Shown: positions 9,167-19,534 of the stretch, piece after piece | Numbering within the stretch: the stretch's first letter is position 1 | Layout: each line of letters begins with the position of its first letter | Source of the DNA: Bacteroidales bacterium | GTDB lineage: Bacteria; Bacteroidota; Bacteroidia; Bacteroidales; UBA932 | Assembly: GCA_017427385.1 (NCBI GenBank) | Contig: JAFRSW010000009.1 | Span: forward strand, 1 to 35,707 | Length of the DNA stretch: 35,707 bases | Direction of reading: 5' to 3' | Program-made: the position numbers and the translations under genes | Notes under the pieces: generated by a model | Told to the model about the DNA's origin: nothing | Seen by the model: only the letters and a program-made list of their open reading frames with translations | Databases searched by the model: none

Positions 9167-9480
9167 AAAAAGGTGGGACGATCCGTCGCCCGCAAGGGAG
9201 GAAAGTCCGGACAGGAAAGGGCACCCCGCTGCGGAAAGCGCAGGAGGGAGTAATCTTTCGGAGGCCGTAACAGAAAATGGCTGCCAGAAATGGTAAAGGT
9301 GAAAACGCGAGGTAAGAGCTCACGACGTGTGGCGGTGACGTCATGCGGGTACGGCACCGGGGCCTGCAAAACCAAATATACCGGCAAATGAGGGCGGCCC
9401 GCCCGATGCCGGGGGGTAGGTTGCGAAGATAAATGACGGATTCAAAAACAGAAACCGGCTTACGGCCCCACCTTTTTGAT
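9167..9480 (+). ncRNA. rnpB: RNase P RNA (bacterial class A)
   Basis: The conserved core is plain: GAGGAAAGTCCGGAC near 9199-9213, the ACAGAAAATGG block near 9271, GGTAAGAGCTCACGA near 9311-9325, and the 3' universal block AGATAAATGACGG with ACAGAAACCGGCTTA near 9428-9462. The ends pair as helix P1: AAAAAGGTGGG at 9167-9177 with CCCACCTTTTT at 9467-9477. This ribozyme matures the 5' ends of tRNAs. About 310 nt is a normal length for type A. The P1 helix followed by T-rich sequence (9472-9486) may also serve as the terminator. Confidence 0.96.
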
Positions 9481-10265: not shown

Positions 10266-10271
10266 CTGTGC

Positions 10272-10352
10272 AAAAAGGGGGTACTTCGCTTTTGCGAAGT
10301 TGAGAATATACCCTTTGAACCTGATGCGGGTAATGCCGCCGGAGGAATTTTT
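10272..10352 (+). promoter_or_regulatory. TPP (thiamine pyrophosphate) riboswitch, THI element
   Basis: The conserved aptamer cores are present: TTGAGA at 10300-10305, then ACCCTTTGAACCTGAT near 10310-10325 and GGGTAATGCCGCCGGAGGAA near 10328-10347. The optional P3 arm is a perfect ACTTCGC/GCGAAGT hairpin (10283-10300) and the GGGTA/TACCC stem is P2. P1 can form between the A-run at 10272-10276 and the T-run at 10348-10352. The GGAGGAA segment lies immediately before the ATG at 10355, so ligand binding probably blocks translation initiation directly rather than by a separate terminator, which is absent. Confidence 0.95.
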
Positions 10353-10354
10353 AT

Positions 10355-12739
10355 ATGCGTAAATTTTATTTTGCCGCAGCCATTCTAGGCTGCATTTCAC
10401 TGGGTGCAGGTGCCCAGGAGGCCGATTCTCTGGCCACAGAAGAGCTTCAGACCATCATCGTTAGTGCCGTGCGCACGCAGAGTGATGCACCGTATGCGGT
10501 CAGCAATATTTCAGAACGGGAAGTACGTGAATTCAGCACTACGGGCAGGGAACTGCCTTTGCTTTTTGCGCGCACTCCCGGCGTTGTAGCCTGGAGCGAA
10601 AACGGCGTTGGCACGGGTACGACTTACATGAGGATACGCGGCGCTGCCGGATCCAGGATAAACGTTACTCTTGATGGCGTTCCGCTCAACTCGCCGGAGG
10701 ACCAGACGGTGTTTTGGGTGAACATGAATTCGTACGGAAGGCTGCTCGGAAGCGTTCAGATACAGCGAGGCGTAGGTTCGTCCACCAACGGCGACGGAGC
10801 TTTCGGCGGCACCGTATCCCTCGGCACCAAGGCATCTTCCCAGGTGCCCTCGGTCGAGCTGACATCTTCTTATGGATCATACAATACTTTCAATTATGGC
10901 GTGATCCTTTCCTCCGGGCTGCTGAAGAATCATTTCTGCCTCGATGCCGCTTATCATACTACATCTACCGACGGATATATCCATGGCACCGCGGGCCGTT
11001 CGGGCAGCTATATGGCGGCTTTGAGCTGGATTGGCCGCGATATTAAGATCGGATACCGCCTCCTGGGGAATTATGAAGTGACCGGCCAGGCCTGGAACGG
11101 CGTGACCGCTGGGAATGACGATCTTTCCATAATGGATGGGACCTATGGAACAGCCACTGGGATACATACTTACGGGGATATGTGCAAAGTGGGCCTGGGG
11201 CGTTTCAACTCCCTGTATGAGATGATGACTATAAGCGGGACGGATTATACTACAGACCGCTATAAGATGGACGATGGGTCTTTCTGGCCAAGGACTACCG
11301 ATAATTTCTGGCAGAACCATCATATCCTCAGCCTGGCCTGGAAGATTTCTCCTTATGCGAAATATTCGGCTGCAGCCCATTACACGGCCGGTTATGGCTA
11401 TTACGAGGAGTTCCGATACAATAATAAATTGCTCAAATACGGCCTGCCTGTCATGACTACCGATGCCGGAACGGTCAAAAGGAGTGATTTCGTGCGGCAG
11501 AAGGGGCTGGATCAGGATACTTACGGGGTTATATCTAACATTTCGTTCAAGAAGGATTCGTGGGATGCCGTTGCCGGTGTCTCGGTGCAGAATTATGTTG
11601 GTAAGCACTTCGGCTATCTGACCTATGCCTCGTCCAAAGACGTGGCGGACAAGTATCTTGCCTACGGCAGGTACATGTATTACGATTCCCCGGCCAGCAA
11701 GTTCGACGCAAGTGGCTTTGCCAAGGTGGCTTACAGTATCAACCCTCGCTTAAGTATCTATGGCGACCTGCAGCTCAGGTACGTAGATTTCGTGTCCTCC
11801 GGCTACAACGATAAATACATCGACAATGGCGATGGAACGGCCTCCAGGCACGTTTTGGACATTTCTTCCAACTGGATGTTCTTCAATCCCAAAGCCGGTT
11901 TTAATTACTTGTCCGGCGCTCACCGCGTATACGGTTCCGTGGCGGTTGCAAACAGGGAACCGGAGAGGAACAATTTTACCGACAACGGAAAGTATCCTGC
12001 CCCCAGGGCTGAACGGCTGTATGACTTCGAGGCCGGGTATAGTTACGATGGCAAGGCGTTCCGAGGAAGTGCAGGGCTTTATTATATGAAGTATAAGGAC
12101 CAGCTTGTGCAGACAGGGGAGAAGAGCGATATTGGGGAGTCCCTGACGACCAATATACCGGATTCCTACCGTGCCGGCATCGAATTGTCCGGTGCAATCA
12201 ATCTGTGCCCCTGGCTTACCCTGGAGGCGAATGCGGCCTTGAGCCAGAACAAACTGTTGGATTTCGATGAATATGTGGAAGATTGGGACAGTGCATCGGG
12301 AGTGACTGTCATTCATTACGATAACAGCACGCTGGCATTTTCTCCTTCTGCCATATGCAATTTCTTCGCGGATTTCCACTGGAAAGCGTTCCGTGCGGAG
12401 TGGAACACTTCTTATGTGAGCAGGACTTACCTCGATAATACGCAGAATGCCGACCGGAGCCTGCCTGCATACAGCATTACAAATCTTTCATTTAAGTACA
12501 CGCTTATGCCGGCCTTTATGACCGGTGTTCCGGACTGGCTCAGGCGCAGCCACCTGAAGGAAGCGGTATTAGGTCTGGATTTGGGCAATCTGTTCAATGC
12601 CCATGTGGCCCAGAGCGGTTGGGTTTATTCCGCCCTGTATGCCAGCGGCGGGCATCCGGACGATAATCGCTATTATCAGATCGGCTTTATCCCCGCCCCG
12701 CCGTTCACTATTACCGCCCACCTTACGGTCCGGTTCTGA
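10355..12739 (+). CDS. TonB-dependent outer-membrane receptor, probable thiamine (or thiamine precursor) transporter
   Basis: The protein has 794 residues with a signal peptide (about residues 1-20) and a TonB-box-like ELQTIIVSAVRT at about 30-42. The plug domain carries MRIRGAAGSRINVTLDGVPLNSPEDQ and SVQIQRGVGSSTNGDGAFGGTV. A 22-strand barrel follows, ending in the terminal aromatic expected for outer-membrane proteins (LTVRF). There is no N-terminal carboxypeptidase-like domain, so this is not a SusC-type protein. The TPP riboswitch just before the start is the main evidence for substrate: THI-controlled receptors of this kind are known in Bacteroidota. No inner-membrane thiamine permease or thiamine kinase follows. 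Confidence 0.9.
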   Translation: MRKFYFAAAILGCISLGAGAQEADSLATEELQTIIVSAVRTQSDAPYAVSNISEREVREFSTTGRELPLLFARTPGVVAWSENGVGTGTTYMRIRGAAGSRINVTLDGVPLNSPEDQTVFWVNMNSYGRLLGSVQIQRGVGSSTNGDGAFGGTVSLGTKASSQVPSVELTSSYGSYNTFNYGVILSSGLLKNHFCLDAAYHTTSTDGYIHGTAGRSGSYMAALSWIGRDIKIGYRLLGNYEVTGQAWNGVTAGNDDLSIMDGTYGTATGIHTYGDMCKVGLGRFNSLYEMMTISGTDYTTDRYKMDDGSFWPRTTDNFWQNHHILSLAWKISPYAKYSAAAHYTAGYGYYEEFRYNNKLLKYGLPVMTTDAGTVKRSDFVRQKGLDQDTYGVISNISFKKDSWDAVAGVSVQNYVGKHFGYLTYASSKDVADKYLAYGRYMYYDSPASKFDASGFAKVAYSINPRLSIYGDLQLRYVDFVSSGYNDKYIDNGDGTASRHVLDISSNWMFFNPKAGFNYLSGAHRVYGSVAVANREPERNNFTDNGKYPAPRAERLYDFEAGYSYDGKAFRGSAGLYYMKYKDQLVQTGEKSDIGESLTTNIPDSYRAGIELSGAINLCPWLTLEANAALSQNKLLDFDEYVEDWDSASGVTVIHYDNSTLAFSPSAICNFFADFHWKAFRAEWNTSYVSRTYLDNTQNADRSLPAYSITNLSFKYTLMPAFMTGVPDWLRRSHLKEAVLGLDLGNLFNAHVAQSGWVYSALYASGGHPDDNRYYQIGFIPAPPFTITAHLTVRF

Positions 12740-15439: not shown

Positions 15440-17299
15440 ATGGATAAGAATACTATCACAGGTTTCGTCCTGATCGCGGTAATTTTATTCGGTTTCACAT
15501 TCTATCAGTCCAGACAAGCCCGCAAGGCAGCTGAATGGCTGGCCCAGCAGGATTCTATCGCACTTGCCGCCAGGATCGCGGCAGGCGATACCGTGGAATA
15601 TGCAGTGCCGGCGGAACCGTCAGAAACCGCCGTGGCCGCCACTCAGGAGCCCTCAGCCCAGGCTGCCATCTACAAGGACGCCGCCCTCGAGGCTGCACAT
15701 AATGCCGCCGCGCAGTTGGTAAAACTGGAGAACGACAAGATAGCCCTCACGCTCACAAGCCAGGGCGCACAGCCCTACAACGTTCTTGTTAAGGACTATT
15801 TCAACTACGACAGCACCGCGCTCTACATCTTCAAGGATGGCGGAGCATCCTACTCCGTAAGCGTCTACACCGGCGAGTTCATCCAGACCAAGGACTTCAA
15901 CTTCCAGATCGCGGAGCAGAACGACACATGCGTAGTCTTCCGTCTCCCGTTCTCCGACGGCGGATACATCGAGCAGCGCTATGCCCTTCAGGCCGGATCG
16001 TACATGGTAGACAACACCCTTTCCTTCATCGAGATGGGCAGCGTTCCCAGGAACGTATCCTCCATCGACATAGACTACTCAATGATCATCCCCCGCATGG
16101 AGAAGGGCTACAAGAACGAGGCTCAGTACTCCAAGCTGGATTTCTATCAGGAAGGGGATAAGAAGCCCACGGAGATCGGCCGCAGCCGCAATGGCAATAA
16201 GCGTGTCGACTCCCGTGTGAGCTGGTTCGCATTCCAGCAGCAGTTCTTCTCCGCCATCTTCCGCGCCAAGAACCAGTTCTCCTCCGGATCCTTCGACGTA
16301 GCTTTCTTCCCTCAGGAAGACGAGTCCCGCAACCTGATGGCCTGCAACGCAAAGATGCGCGTCGAGTACCGTCCAGGGCAGGACAACGTCATCCCCATGG
16401 AGATGTACCTTGGCCCCAACCACTACAAGACACTGCGCGAATACGGACAGAAATACGAGAAGGTCATCCCTCTGGGAGGCTCGCTCGTGGGGTGGTTCAC
16501 CAAATACGTCATCATCCCCATGTTCGATTTCTTCCACCGTTTCATATCCAATTTCGGCCTGATCATCCTGCTGATGACCATCGTCATCAAACTGGTGGTG
16601 TTCCCGCTGACCTACAAGTCATTTGCGTCATCCTCCATCATGGCCATACTCAAGCCGGAAATCGAGAAGATCAACGCCAAGTATCCCAAGCAGGAAGATG
16701 CGATGAAGAAGCAGCAGGCCACCATGGCCCTATACAACAAGGCCGGAGCCAATCCTATGGGAGGATGCCTGCCTACGCTGCTCACCTTCCCTATACTCTG
16801 GGCGATGTTCCGCTTCTTCCCAGCATCCATCGAGTTGCGCCAGCAGCCCTTCCTTTGGGCACATGACCTCTCCACCTACGATGCCATCCTGGAATTCGGT
16901 CACCGCGTGCCGCTGATAGGAGACCACCTCTCCCTGTTCGCGCTGCTGATGGCCGTCACCATGTGGATATACAGCAAGATGACCATGTCCGGGCAGGCTA
17001 CGGCCAACGACCCGAACGCACAGAGCATGCAGTTCATGACCAAGTGGATGATGCCCATCATGATGTTCTTCATCTGCAACAGCCTGTCTGCAGCTCTGAG
17101 CTACTATTATCTGCTTTCCCAGCTCATCAGCATGCTGCAGATCTGGGTGATACGCAAGTTTATCGTAAAGCCCGAGAAGGTGTATGCAAGGATGGCTGCC
17201 AACGAGAATAAGCCCGTCAAGAAGAGCAAATGGCAGCAAAGGCTGGAAGAAGCTCAGAGAATGCAGGAACAACAGATGCGTCAACAAAGGAAACGATGA
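15440..17299 (+). CDS. yidC: Membrane protein insertase YidC
   Basis: The 619-residue protein has an N-terminal membrane helix (ITGFVLIAVILFGFTFY), a large periplasmic beta-supersandwich domain (about residues 80-340), and the conserved C-terminal insertase core: LIILLMTIVIKLVVFPLTYKS, NPMGGCLPTLLTFPILWAMF and the last helices around SLFALLMAVTMWIYSKM and MMFFICNSLSAALSYYYLLSQ. The tail is very basic (RLEEAQRMQEQQMRQQRKR), as expected for ribosome contact. YidC inserts membrane proteins with or without SecYEG. Its TGA overlaps the ATG of yggS. Confidence 0.96.
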   Translation: MDKNTITGFVLIAVILFGFTFYQSRQARKAAEWLAQQDSIALAARIAAGDTVEYAVPAEPSETAVAATQEPSAQAAIYKDAALEAAHNAAAQLVKLENDKIALTLTSQGAQPYNVLVKDYFNYDSTALYIFKDGGASYSVSVYTGEFIQTKDFNFQIAEQNDTCVVFRLPFSDGGYIEQRYALQAGSYMVDNTLSFIEMGSVPRNVSSIDIDYSMIIPRMEKGYKNEAQYSKLDFYQEGDKKPTEIGRSRNGNKRVDSRVSWFAFQQQFFSAIFRAKNQFSSGSFDVAFFPQEDESRNLMACNAKMRVEYRPGQDNVIPMEMYLGPNHYKTLREYGQKYEKVIPLGGSLVGWFTKYVIIPMFDFFHRFISNFGLIILLMTIVIKLVVFPLTYKSFASSSIMAILKPEIEKINAKYPKQEDAMKKQQATMALYNKAGANPMGGCLPTLLTFPILWAMFRFFPASIELRQQPFLWAHDLSTYDAILEFGHRVPLIGDHLSLFALLMAVTMWIYSKMTMSGQATANDPNAQSMQFMTKWMMPIMMFFICNSLSAALSYYYLLSQLISMLQIWVIRKFIVKPEKVYARMAANENKPVKKSKWQQRLEEAQRMQEQQMRQQRKR

Positions 17300-17952
17300 T
17301 TGCATTTAATCTTGATAAAATCAAGGAGGAACTGCCATCAGGGGTTAAACTGGTGGCAGTTTCCAAATTCCATCCCTTCGAGGCCATCCTGGAGGCCTAC
17401 AATGAGGGCCAGAGGGCTTTTGGGGAGAATCGTCCGCAGGAATTCGCAGCCAAGGCTGTGCAGTTGCCGCCGGACATCGAATGGCACTTCATAGGGCATC
17501 TGCAGACCAATAAATTGAAACTGGTGCTGCCTTATGCCTATATGGTGGAATCCATCGACACCCTGCATCTACTGGAGGCTGTGAACAACTGGGGAGAGAA
17601 GAATAATAAGGTGATCAGCGTGCTTCTGGAAGTGCATATCGGTGCGGAAGAAACCAAGCAGGGCTTCACTCCTTCGGAGGTGAAAGCGGTGCTGCAGATG
17701 GCAGGTGAGTTCCCCTTCGTGCATTTCCGCGGCCTCATGGGCATGGCATCGCATACCGAAGATGAAGAAGCCATATCGGCTGATTTTCAGACGATCAAGG
17801 CCCTGTTCGATGAATGCCGCGCGCAGTATCCGCAGTTCACCGATTTCGACCAGCTATCCATTGGCATGTCGGACGATTGGCAGATCGCTACCCGCTATGG
17901 CAGCACGGAGGTGCGCATAGGAACTGCCATATTTGGCAGTCGGGAATACTAA
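17296..17952 (+). CDS. YggS/PLPBP family pyridoxal-phosphate homeostasis protein
   Basis: The 218-residue single-domain PLP protein has the Lys24 site in VAVSKFHP, FGENRPQEF, WHFIGHLQTNK, FRGLMGMASHTED, and LSIGMSDDWQIATRYGSTEVRIGTAIFG, all diagnostic of YggS/PROSC. These proteins buffer PLP in the cytoplasm and have no known catalytic activity. The ATG at 17296 overlaps the yidC stop (ATGA), showing translational coupling; longer frames from 17230 lie inside yidC and are unlikely. Confidence 0.93.
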   Translation: MIAFNLDKIKEELPSGVKLVAVSKFHPFEAILEAYNEGQRAFGENRPQEFAAKAVQLPPDIEWHFIGHLQTNKLKLVLPYAYMVESIDTLHLLEAVNNWGEKNNKVISVLLEVHIGAEETKQGFTPSEVKAVLQMAGEFPFVHFRGLMGMASHTEDEEAISADFQTIKALFDECRAQYPQFTDFDQLSIGMSDDWQIATRYGSTEVRIGTAIFGSREY

Positions 17953-17975
17953 TTCTGCAGGTTTTGCAAAAAAAG

Positions 17976-18007
17976 TTTGCATATTAAATATCTTATTCTT
18001 TTATTTG
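17976..18007 (+). promoter_or_regulatory. -33/-7 promoter of the trp leader and trpB2
   Basis: TTTG at 17976-17979, 20 bases, then TTTATTTG at 18000-18007, one mismatch from TAnnTTTG. Using the G-to-start spacing seen at rnpB, transcription should begin around 18013-18015, at or just before the leader-peptide ATG. Confidence 0.6.
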
Positions 18008-18014
18008 CAGAAGA

Positions 18015-18068
18015 ATGATGACAATCGCAAATATCTGGTGGTGGCGCTTACAACTCAAAAAGTCGTAA
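18015..18068 (+). CDS. trpL: Tryptophan leader peptide with three consecutive Trp codons
   Basis: This 17-codon frame encodes MMTIANIWWWRLQLKKS and then TAA. Three TGG codons in a row at 18036-18044 are very improbable by chance in a short leader directly upstream of a tryptophan synthase gene. The reading frame ends inside the 5' arm of a predicted antiterminator (18063-18072), as in the E. coli trp attenuator. It is too short for normal ORF calling. The initiation codon may be the first or second ATG; both are in frame, and the transcript would have almost no 5' leader. The assignment rests on codon content, position and matching RNA structure. Confidence 0.85.
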   Translation: MMTIANIWWWRLQLKKS

Positions 18069-18133
18069 GTTCCATTGCCGTATATATAGGAGTCAAGCAG
18101 CATATCGGACTTACGATGTGCTGCTTTTTTTTT
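18047..18133 (+). promoter_or_regulatory. Ribosome-mediated transcription attenuator of trpB2
   Basis: Three short segments are mutually complementary: 1 = CTTAC (18047-18051), 2 = TCGTAAGTTC (18063-18072) and 3 = GGACTTACGA (18107-18116). Segments 1 and 2 give a pause hairpin, and 2 and 3 a 10-bp antiterminator (one G-U pair). Segment 3 overlaps the loop and 3' arm of the terminator (18095-18126). Segment 2 starts at the last sense codon and stop of the leader peptide. A ribosome stalled on the Trp codons, about 20 bases upstream, leaves segment 2 free and allows antitermination; a ribosome at the stop codon covers it and lets the terminator form. Confidence 0.85.
18095..18133 (+). terminator. 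Intrinsic terminator of the trp attenuator
   Basis: AAGCAGCATATCG (18095-18107) pairs with CGATGTGCTGCTT (18114-18126) over 13 positions with one U-G wobble, around a six-base loop. Nine Ts follow at 18125-18133. It is 33 bases before the trpB2 start and is far stronger than needed by chance. Confidence 0.92.
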
Positions 18134-18166
18134 GTTAGAAACTCAAACAATTAACACCAATACATT

Positions 18167-19534
18167 ATGAAACAGAAGAAGTTCATGCTGCCGGAATCCG
18201 AGATTCCTACGCACTATTTCAACATCCAGGCCGTGATGCCGAACAAGCCCCTCCCGTTCCTCCATCCTGCCACGCGCCAGCCGCTTAAGCCCGAAGATCT
18301 CTATCCCATCTTCTGCAAGGCATGCGCCGATCAGGAACTGAATCAGACCGATGAGTGGATTCCTATCCCGGAAGAGGTGCGTGAGCAGTATGCCGCATAC
18401 CGTTGCACTCCGCTGGTGCGCGCCTACGAGCTTGAGAAGGCTCTCGGCACTCCCGCCCACATCTACTTCAAGAACGAGAGCGTGAGCCCTGCCGGCAGCC
18501 ATAAGCTGAATTCTGCAATCGCCCAGGCATACTATGCCAAGGAGCAGGGGATTACCAACCTGACCACCGAGACCGGTGCCGGCCAATGGGGTGGTGCCCT
18601 CAGCTATGCCACTAAGAAATTCGGCATAGACTGCGCCGTTTATATGGTAAAGGTCAGTTATGAGCAAAAGCCCTACAGGCGCTCTATCATGCAGACCTTC
18701 GGCGCAGCCATCACCCCTTCACCTTCGATGAGCACACGTGCGGGAAAGGATATCATTACCAGGAATCCTAACGACCAGGGCTCTTTGGGCTGCGCCATAT
18801 CCGAAGCCATAGAATTGGCTGTGTCTACTCCTAACTGCAAATATGCTTTGGGATCGGTGCTCAACCATGTCTGCCTCCATCAGAGCATCATAGGCCTGGA
18901 GGCCGAAAAGCAGATGGCTCTGGCAGGGGAGTATCCGGACATAGTGATTGCCTGCTTCGGCGGCGGTTCCAACTTCTCGGGTATTGCATATCCCTTCATG
19001 CGTCACAATATCCAGGAAGGGAAGAAAACGCGCTTCATAGCAGCAGAACCCTGCTCTTGCCCTAAACTCACCAAAGGCAAGTTCGAATATGACTTCGGGG
19101 ATGAGGCCGGAATGACTCCTCTGCTGCCTATGTTCACTCTCGGACATACCTTCAAGCCCGCATCCATACATGCAGGAGGCCTGCGCTACCATGGCGCCGG
19201 CGTCATCCTCAGCCAGCTGATGAAGGATGGATTCATGGAGGCGGTGGATATCGAACAGCTTGATTCGTTCCGCGCCGGCGTGCTCTTCGCCCGCACCGAG
19301 GGCATAATCCCCGCTCCGGAATCCTGCCATGCTATCGCCGCCACCATCACAGAAGCCCTGAAGTGCAAGGAAACAGGCGAGGCCAAGACCATCCTCTTCA
19401 ACCTGTCCGGACATGGATTCGTGGATATGGGTGCATACGACAGCTACTTCTCCGGAGAGATGCAGAACTACCACGTATCTGATGAGGAACTCGGCCGCTT
19501 TATAAAGAGCGCCGACGAGCTTAACAAGCAGTAA
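18167..19534 (+). CDS. trpB: Tryptophan synthase beta chain-like enzyme, TrpB2 type
   Basis: This 455-residue protein is longer than TrpB1 (about 400) and has the TrpB2 pattern: an extended N-terminus (LPESEIPTHYFNIQA), PAGSHKLNSA with PLP-Lys113, TETGAGQWGGALSYA with catalytic Glu135, and the PLP-phosphate loop GGGSN at 265-269. It condenses indole with serine to form tryptophan. TrpB2 usually does not partner with TrpA and there is no trpA nearby, so indole salvage is the likely role. Control by a Trp-codon attenuator directly upstream supports a tryptophan-forming function. It overlaps the convergent arginase-like gene by 14 bases. Confidence 0.93.
   Translation: MKQKKFMLPESEIPTHYFNIQAVMPNKPLPFLHPATRQPLKPEDLYPIFCKACADQELNQTDEWIPIPEEVREQYAAYRCTPLVRAYELEKALGTPAHIYFKNESVSPAGSHKLNSAIAQAYYAKEQGITNLTTETGAGQWGGALSYATKKFGIDCAVYMVKVSYEQKPYRRSIMQTFGAAITPSPSMSTRAGKDIITRNPNDQGSLGCAISEAIELAVSTPNCKYALGSVLNHVCLHQSIIGLEAEKQMALAGEYPDIVIACFGGGSNFSGIAYPFMRHNIQEGKKTRFIAAEPCSCPKLTKGKFEYDFGDEAGMTPLLPMFTLGHTFKPASIHAGGLRYHGAGVILSQLMKDGFMEAVDIEQLDSFRAGVLFARTEGIIPAPESCHAIAATITEALKCKETGEAKTILFNLSGHGFVDMGAYDSYFSGEMQNYHVSDEELGRFIKSADELNKQ

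Follow-up and report, generated by a model that had tools for sequence, protein, structure and literature searches.

Why would a single gene for a TrpB-like enzyme, in a genome of the Bacteroidota type, be preceded by a short open reading frame (ORF) with a run of tryptophan (Trp) codons and by a terminator hairpin? We address this question for a stretch of 35,707 nucleotides from a Bacteroidales bacterium (contig JAFRSW010000009.1), the whole of which is called the window below. A preliminary description, made from the letters of the DNA, had proposed a Trp attenuator (a Trp-Trp-Trp leader peptide plus switching hairpins) on a lone trpB2 in a Bacteroidota-type host. Host and target have both held up, and the elements of the attenuator can be read in the sequence, are conserved in relatives and covary. 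The best explanation, in which we place high confidence, is ribosome-mediated transcription attenuation of trpB2 by charged tRNATrp. In this gut bacterium, trpB2, and with it the making of tryptophan from indole, appears to be switched on only under tryptophan shortage. The regulation of trpB2 would itself link this enzyme family, which is annotated only loosely, to the supply of tryptophan in Bacteroidales that are mostly uncultured.

The Target Gene and Its Leader

The putative regulated gene, trpB2 (positions 18167–19534, plus strand), encodes a TrpB-like PLP enzyme of 455 amino acids. Typed with profile families, the protein scores 694.1 bits against NF009057 (cut-off 366) and 585.6 bits against TIGR01415 (cut-off 518.85), while its score against canonical trpB (TIGR00263) is 149.5 bits, under the cut-off of 392.45. 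Its function is assigned by homology, and it probably uses indole. A TrpB2 of B. thetaiotaomicron (BT_RS23500) brought a growth benefit to an E. coli trpA mutant kept together with wild-type E. coli; the authors attribute this to the conversion of secreted indole (PMC11535334). Control of trpB2 by Trp fits this indole-conversion role. Upstream of the leader lies a YggS-like ORF (17230–17952), co-oriented with trpB2. Elsewhere in the window, a TPP riboswitch (10267–10364) is found 5′ of a gene that by eye resembles a TonB-dependent receptor, and a bacterial class A RNase P RNA occupies 9170–9478.

Read directly from 17976 to 18170, the sequence comprises, from 5′ to 3′, TTTG, a 20-nt spacer, TTTATTTG, 7 nt, ATG, the peptide, the terminator and trpB2. 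The peptide MMTIANIWWWRLQLKKS (18015–18068, plus strand) has 17 codons, from the ATG at 18015 to the stop codon UAA at 18066–18068, and its three Trp codons (18036, 18039 and 18042) are adjacent. There are, then, putatively regulatory Trp codons in a predicted translatable leader ORF upstream of trpB2.

The pairing elements follow on the same strand. Segment 1 (GCTTACAACTC, 18046–18056), supported by the 1:2 helix pairing in 48 leaders, contains CTTAC at 18047–18051 and has segment 2 (GTCGTAAGTTC, 18062–18072) as its partner. Segment 2 overlaps the leader stop and, judging from the covariation of 2:3, alternates between segments 1 and 3. Segment 3 (GGACTTACGAT, 18107–18117), found by helix search, takes in the whole 6-nt loop of the terminator, together with a single nt of its 5′ arm and 4 nt of its 3′ arm. 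The intrinsic terminator hairpin (3:4; 18095–18126), to which both folding and covariation point, has 13 bp and −21.0 kcal/mol and is followed by a T-run to 18133; two of its nine Ts (18125–18133) pair within the stem. The 2:3 pairing had been put at 10 nt; the pairing exists, with a length of 11 bp (p 0.005 versus shuffles). The three pairings 1:2, 2:3 and 3:4 are mutually exclusive, and the 126-nt leader folds at −46.4 kcal/mol versus −26.5 ± 3.5 kcal/mol in 200 dinucleotide shuffles (z −5.63).

Promoter-Like Boxes and the Predicted Start of Transcription

Promoters of Bacteroidota carry a TTTG box at −33. In the window, in keeping with the proposed start of the transcript at the leader ATG, promoter-like boxes stand just 5′ of that codon: TTTG at 17976–17979 is followed, after the 20-nt spacer, by the −7-like box at 18000–18007, the pair (17976–18007, plus strand) matching 9 of 10 consensus positions, and the ATG comes 7 nt past the second box. 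Sixty-nine leaders could be scored in the same way (one more was too short). A −33/−7 pair of at least 8/10 was found upstream in 66 of them, versus 31% of 680 shuffled stretches, and the first in-frame ATG lies 7 or 8 nt past the −7 box in 31/69. Judged from these boxes, a transcription start at the leader ATG, or within a few bases of it, is plausible.

A TAnnTTTG promoter box is named in the available part of PMC6414381. For B. thetaiotaomicron, 5′ UTRs of less than 10 nt make up only about 3.7% in the portion of PMC7366714 at hand, and the predicted start near the leader ATG would therefore be unusual. The same portion describes the phylum as being without classical Shine-Dalgarno sequences; in such a phylum, a start codon this close to the promoter makes the leader a candidate for a nearly leaderless attenuator peptide.

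Conservation and Covariation

Two checks had been set beforehand, namely whether relatives retain the TGG run and whether segments 1–4 show compensatory pairing. Eighty loci came from one scan of genome contigs (the best 80 of 592 relatives) and 30 from the 59 genomes of the window's family (the window genome counted in); 112 loci, minus three without a gene start and two extra copies of the window, left 107 upstream regions. A mechanical rule, which asked for a short ORF beginning with ATG and having two or more Trp codons in a row, found such a frame upstream of trpB2 in 71/107 regions. Applied to 20 shuffled sets, the same rule gave 0.95 on average and never more than 2, which bears out the expected retention. 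Broken down by the identity of TrpB2 to that of the window, the rule finds the frame in 1/1 at 100%, 38/39 at 90–99%, 17/24 at 80–89%, 5/28 at 70–79%, 7/11 at 60–69% and 3/4 at 50–59%. It omits two leaders with a GTG start (L011 and L070) and takes in one false match in a longer frame (L105).

Curated by hand, 72 of the 107 loci have an adjacent-Trp leader and 35 do not, two genomes of the window's own genus (G022 and G041) being among the latter. Left out of the leader list were L072, L103 and L105, where TGGTGG occurs only within longer frames, and L024, where by eye there is no leader. Three loci counted as being without a leader (L014, L027 and L029) do, on visual inspection, contain short frames ahead of a hairpin, with one to three Trp codons that are not adjacent. 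At six leaderless loci (L007 and L008 of G022 and G041, L072, L083, L086 and L105), trpB2 is preceded by a gene for a small membrane protein, by eye fumarate reductase cytochrome b-like, and a hairpin. The TrpB2 proteins of L007 and L008 have 75–77% identity to that of the window and lie elsewhere in the tree, as if replaced or transferred. Upstream of trpB2 at L010 there is what by eye looks like a deleted attenuator; it is similar to the first part of the leader of L013, the sister of L010 in the TrpB2 tree, and ends before the Trp codons.

For covariation, 49 of the 72 curated leaders were chosen on visual inspection because their segments are alike, and one duplicate was removed, giving an alignment of 48; the other 23, whose divergence was too great for alignment, were left out, and a selection of this kind favours the structure. 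The terminator helix 3:4 is paired in 90.5% of 576 cells (slid controls 31.3–53.1%), with two-sided changes in all 12 aligned pairs, a number reached by 3/500 shuffles, and in 142 cells versus 43 in shuffles. The 2:3 helix is paired in 95.2% of 421 cells (slid controls 24.0–42.1%); two-sided changes occur in 6/9 pairs, with 28/500 shuffles reaching as many, and in 48 cells versus 12.7. For 1:2, 89.6% of 432 cells are paired (slid controls 27.8–41.2%) and 19 cells have two-sided changes versus 6.6 in shuffles, these falling in 3/9 pairs, as many as are reached in 233/500 shuffles. Kinship among the leaders inflates the shuffle controls of these counts. An example of a compensatory change is seen in columns 34–35: 15 leaders have TC there and 33 have CT, and columns 102–103 of segment 3 change correspondingly, with the exception of one leader that pairs via G-U. 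The expected compensatory pairing is thus clear for 2:3 and 3:4 and weaker for 1:2.

How the Leader May Switch

From its anatomy, its conservation, its covariation and folding with a simulated ribosome, we infer that the window leader responds to Trp, stalls ribosomes, and contains both the start and a conditional end of transcription. The RNA would begin at the leader ATG or within a few bases of it. With enough Trp, the ribosome would reach the UAA inside segment 2 and mask that segment; the terminator (18095–18126) could then fold and trpB2 would not be transcribed. When Trp is short, the ribosome would wait at the Trp codons (18036–18044) and cover segment 1, leaving segment 2 free to pair with the newly made segment 3, that is, with the terminator loop and the apex of the 3′ arm. 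Closure of the terminator would thereby be delayed too long, and trpB2 would be read. If the leader is not translated at all, 1:2 would form and termination would be expected again.

In the simulations, all RNA 5′ of the ribosome front was masked before folding. With the RNA made up to 18118 and the ribosome at any of the three Trp codons, the predicted fold is the 11-bp 2:3 helix (−16.0 kcal/mol). With the ribosome at the UAA the terminator alone forms, and without a ribosome 1:2 forms together with the terminator. Once the RNA extends to 18122, a stall at the first Trp codon favours the terminator, while stalls at the other two keep 2:3. In the full-length RNA the terminator wins in every state tested, at −22.9 to −24.5 kcal/mol with a stalled ribosome versus −11.0 kcal/mol for 2:3 alone. 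Because the full-length terminator is more stable even behind a stalled ribosome, antitermination must be kinetic. Segment 3 is finished 9 nt ahead of the terminator arm, and nine basal terminator pairs are not common to the 2:3 helix; their exclusion by 2:3 would presumably be steric or kinetic.

Alternative Explanations

Could the hairpin be nothing but a terminator, either of the yggS-like gene or as a leader of fixed strength, with an incidental Trp ORF and constantly low trpB2? Intergenic terminators are common, and the upstream YggS-like ORF does run in the same direction. However, promoter boxes lie 5′ of the leader, with the hairpin between them and trpB2, and both the adjacent TGG codons and the alternative 2:3 helix are kept, the latter with compensatory changes; we regard this reading as very improbable. 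A structured 5′ leader with a terminator would also suit a ligand riboswitch, a T-box or a protein-bound RNA that dispenses with the leader peptide. Yet no such Rfam family matches at the gathering threshold, nor at E up to 10 within 17940–18170, and the conserved core consists of Trp codons and switching helices, which makes this the least probable of the alternatives.

A subtler question is what the ribosome would sense. The tnaC leader needs specific spaced residues and Rho. In a tnaC-like arrangement, nascent-peptide arrest or coupled translation would take the place of waiting for charged tRNATrp; free Trp or indole could be sensed within the ribosome by a peptide rich in Trp, and the stop codon does fall within segment 2. 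However, the residues flanking the Trp run vary among leaders, whereas the run itself is preserved, along with the pairings and an intrinsic terminator. This arrangement is quite unlikely, if slightly less so than the other two, and attenuation by charged tRNATrp remains the reading adopted here.

Distribution of the Leader and of Canonical trp Genes

Leaders were searched for with R1, a model built from the 48 trpB2 leaders only. Matches to R1 near 20.4 bits are no evidence, because wrong-strand matches reach 20.4 bits. The model missed the trpB2 leaders L026, L028 and L107, and ten of its matches (L152, L156–L158, L160, L162, L198, L203, L204 and L207) were dropped as being, by eye, unrelated terminators or coding DNA.

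Of the 59 genomes in the family, 30 carry a trpB2 of nearly full length and three a fragmentary one. Canonical trpB exceeds its cut-off in 12, five of which are among the 33 with trpB2, so that it was not found over the cut-off in 28/33 trpB2-bearing genomes. Canonical trpB is closely preceded by an R1 match in 10 of these 12 genomes. A trpE match is present in 15/59, none over the curated cut-off: nine exceed 400 bits, and the six weak ones (40–116 bits) were treated as putative other chorismate enzymes. In the window genome (77.75% complete), no canonical trpB scored above the cut-off and trpE had no match; neither gene was found in G034 and G052 (98% and 95% complete), which carry the leader on trpB2. 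At L151, L153 and L154 (G031, G049 and G011), canonical trpB has a WW leader and there is no trpE match, so perhaps TrpB serves salvage there too.

In a second set (50 of 78 genomes), canonical trpB over the cut-off was not found in 36/50 trpB2-bearing genomes; it is present in 3/28 with a trpB2 leader and in 11/22 without. Fifteen genomes of this set have canonical trpB (14 over the cut-off and one truncated), and in 13 of these R1 matches at trp genes, 12 times just upstream of trpB (three weakly, at 26–30 bits) and once before trpE (L189). Leaders occur on both trpB2 and canonical trpB genes in G642, G644, G618 and G045.

Taken over 79 genome rows, one genome being counted twice (L005 and L088 are identical rows at the same contig coordinates) and the truncated trpB of L103 (391.5 bits, just under the cut-off of 392.45) being counted as present, canonical trpB accompanies 4/44 trpB2 leaders versus 15/35 leaderless trpB2 genes (Fisher p 0.001); no canonical trpB was found in the other 40 rows with a leader. 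Across 11 phylogenetically independent pairs, leader and trpB differ in opposite directions in 3.1 and in the same direction in 1.1 on average (median p 0.625). The raw counts suggest a link between the trpB2 leader and loss of the trp operon that the independent pairs do not support, and the idea that the leader sits on trpB2 where the operon has been lost was dropped as a proven rule. Gene absences are soft, since many of the genomes are incomplete MAGs.

Kinship with Bacteroid-trp

The preliminary description knew of no described example and suggested an unannotated regulatory family. This was abandoned: Bacteroid-trp (RF01692), listed in Table 1 of PMC2864571 (Weinberg et al., 2010; part of the article available), is already described, and the window leader is related to it. 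In the parts available of two further sources, Bacteroid-trp is placed before the trp operon of Flavobacterium psychrophilum (PMC6414381) and clues of leader-peptide attenuation are reported before amino-acid operons of the same species (PMC9723704). The main text of PMC4833913, as far as available, mentions neither trpB nor Bacteroides. In the literature searched, which held few subscription journals and no supplements, no article describing the attenuation of trpB2 in Bacteroidota came up.

An Rfam scan of the window at the gathering threshold found nothing at the leader. A relaxed scan of 17940–18170 (231 bases) gave 32.5 bits with RF01692 (E 0.033), below the gathering threshold of 49, which is passed by one of 20 related trpB2 loci (L076, 49.9 bits). 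At E up to 1, RF01692 matched 0/9 trpB2 loci in a 59-kb relaxed scan, the larger search being a harder test. In the reverse direction, R1 was run on nine RF01692 loci (L113, L117 and L163–L169) and matches every one of them, at 34.8–63.6 bits (E 1.7e-6 to 1.7e-13). Because a model from trpB2 leaders alone finds RF01692 loci outside it, the window leader can be regarded as a relative of RF01692 that is linked to trpB2 and lies below the threshold; by Rfam score it is not a member. The Rfam model stops inside the terminator 5′ arm and pairs the first hairpin only; the switching part (2:3 and 3:4), absent from it, is supplied here, and the family is extended past the Rfam threshold.

RF01692 matches occur in 29/296 genomes of the phylum (27 over the cut-off) and in 19/247 of the order (11 over), with adjacent Trp codons at all 29 phylum loci. 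Like these, the window leader belongs to Bacteroidota and has a short Trp-run peptide, similar surroundings of the stop codon, a terminator before a Trp gene and an antiterminator mostly within the terminator loop and 3′ arm; the Trp-rich leader ORF before a Trp-synthesis gene, a trait of RF01692 in this phylum, is present too, with the function of TrpB2 assigned by homology. The targets differ. The gene following L113, L119 and L172, as well as the R1 locus L189, is trpE (416–433 bits to trpE_most, the best family, under its cut-off of 517.7), and that following L117, L163 and the R1 locus L145 is canonical trpB (575–587 bits with TIGR00263, over the cut-off). All five typed RF01692 loci thus precede trpE or canonical trpB, whereas the window target is a stand-alone trpB2.

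R1 also matches leaders with a run of His codons and a hairpin (e.g., ...SYHHHHTCRS) directly before hisG (TIGR00070, 189–193 bits) in three Bacteroidales genomes: L205 (G644:C73:3941-4029, 37.4 bits), L202 (G640:C22:3865-3946, 32.3 bits) and L206 (G642:C1:106279-106361, 26.1 bits). None of the three matches an Rfam family at gathering, and hisG has no match in the window's own genome.

Loop Capture and Comparison with Other Attenuators

In the trp attenuator of E. coli, segment 3 is the 5′ arm of the terminator. In the window, 1 nt of the 11 in segment 3 comes from this arm. The 2:3 helix search covered 68 of the 72 trpB2 leaders (no terminator was parsed in four): the helix has p ≤0.05 versus shuffles in 48 and not in 20, and in 10/68, mostly divergent leaders, at least half of the bases of the best helix come from the 5′ arm, which is the E. 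coli arrangement. Among RF01692 loci, 46 of 47 could be parsed; the best helix includes at least 3 loop nt in 38 and takes at least half of its bases from the 5′ arm in two, and 24/46 reach p 0.05. Swapping the 2:3 sequences lowered the mean from 20.8 to 16.6, which is not used as proof because it is confounded by close relatives. Loop capture seems to be usual in the family and not universal.

A broader proposal is offered tentatively and with somewhat more doubt than belief. The Bacteroid-trp attenuator may be a portable sensor of Bacteroidales, placed on the trp operon where there is one and on stand-alone trpB2 in indole-salvage lineages whose tryptophan synthesis has been lost, where the use of neighbours' indole would be gated by the charge of the cell's own tRNATrp. 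Most of the family would act by kinetic, sterically exclusive capture of the terminator loop and 3′-arm apex, and a His-codon version would stand before hisG.

Attenuators with UGG-run leaders outside Proteobacteria have been described for actinobacterial trp genes, and in C. diphtheriae a candidate stands ahead of a second trpB gene, trpB2A (Seliverstov et al., 2005; PMC1262725). Attenuators on secondary trpB genes are therefore not unprecedented. This case differs from the window in its phylum, and "trpB2" there is the name of a gene copy in the trpB2A operon, not an established TrpB2 type. The stand-alone salvage target trpB2 and the loop-capture layout seem to be the new parts.

The preliminary description had called the leader exactly the classic E. 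coli trp design. With the E. coli attenuator (trpL, RF00513) it does share the Trp codons, a stop near segment 2, the exclusive pairings 1:2, 2:3 and 3:4, and a terminator with a U-run; Trp_leader RF00513 itself has no match in the window leader, either in the Rfam scan at gathering or in the relaxed scan of 17940–18170. "Exactly" goes too far: segment 2 of the window captures the terminator loop and the apex of the 3′ arm and hardly any of the 5′ arm, the 5′ UTR predicted ahead of the peptide is all but absent, and the target is a single salvage gene in place of an operon. Loop capture is a testable departure from the textbook attenuator layout.
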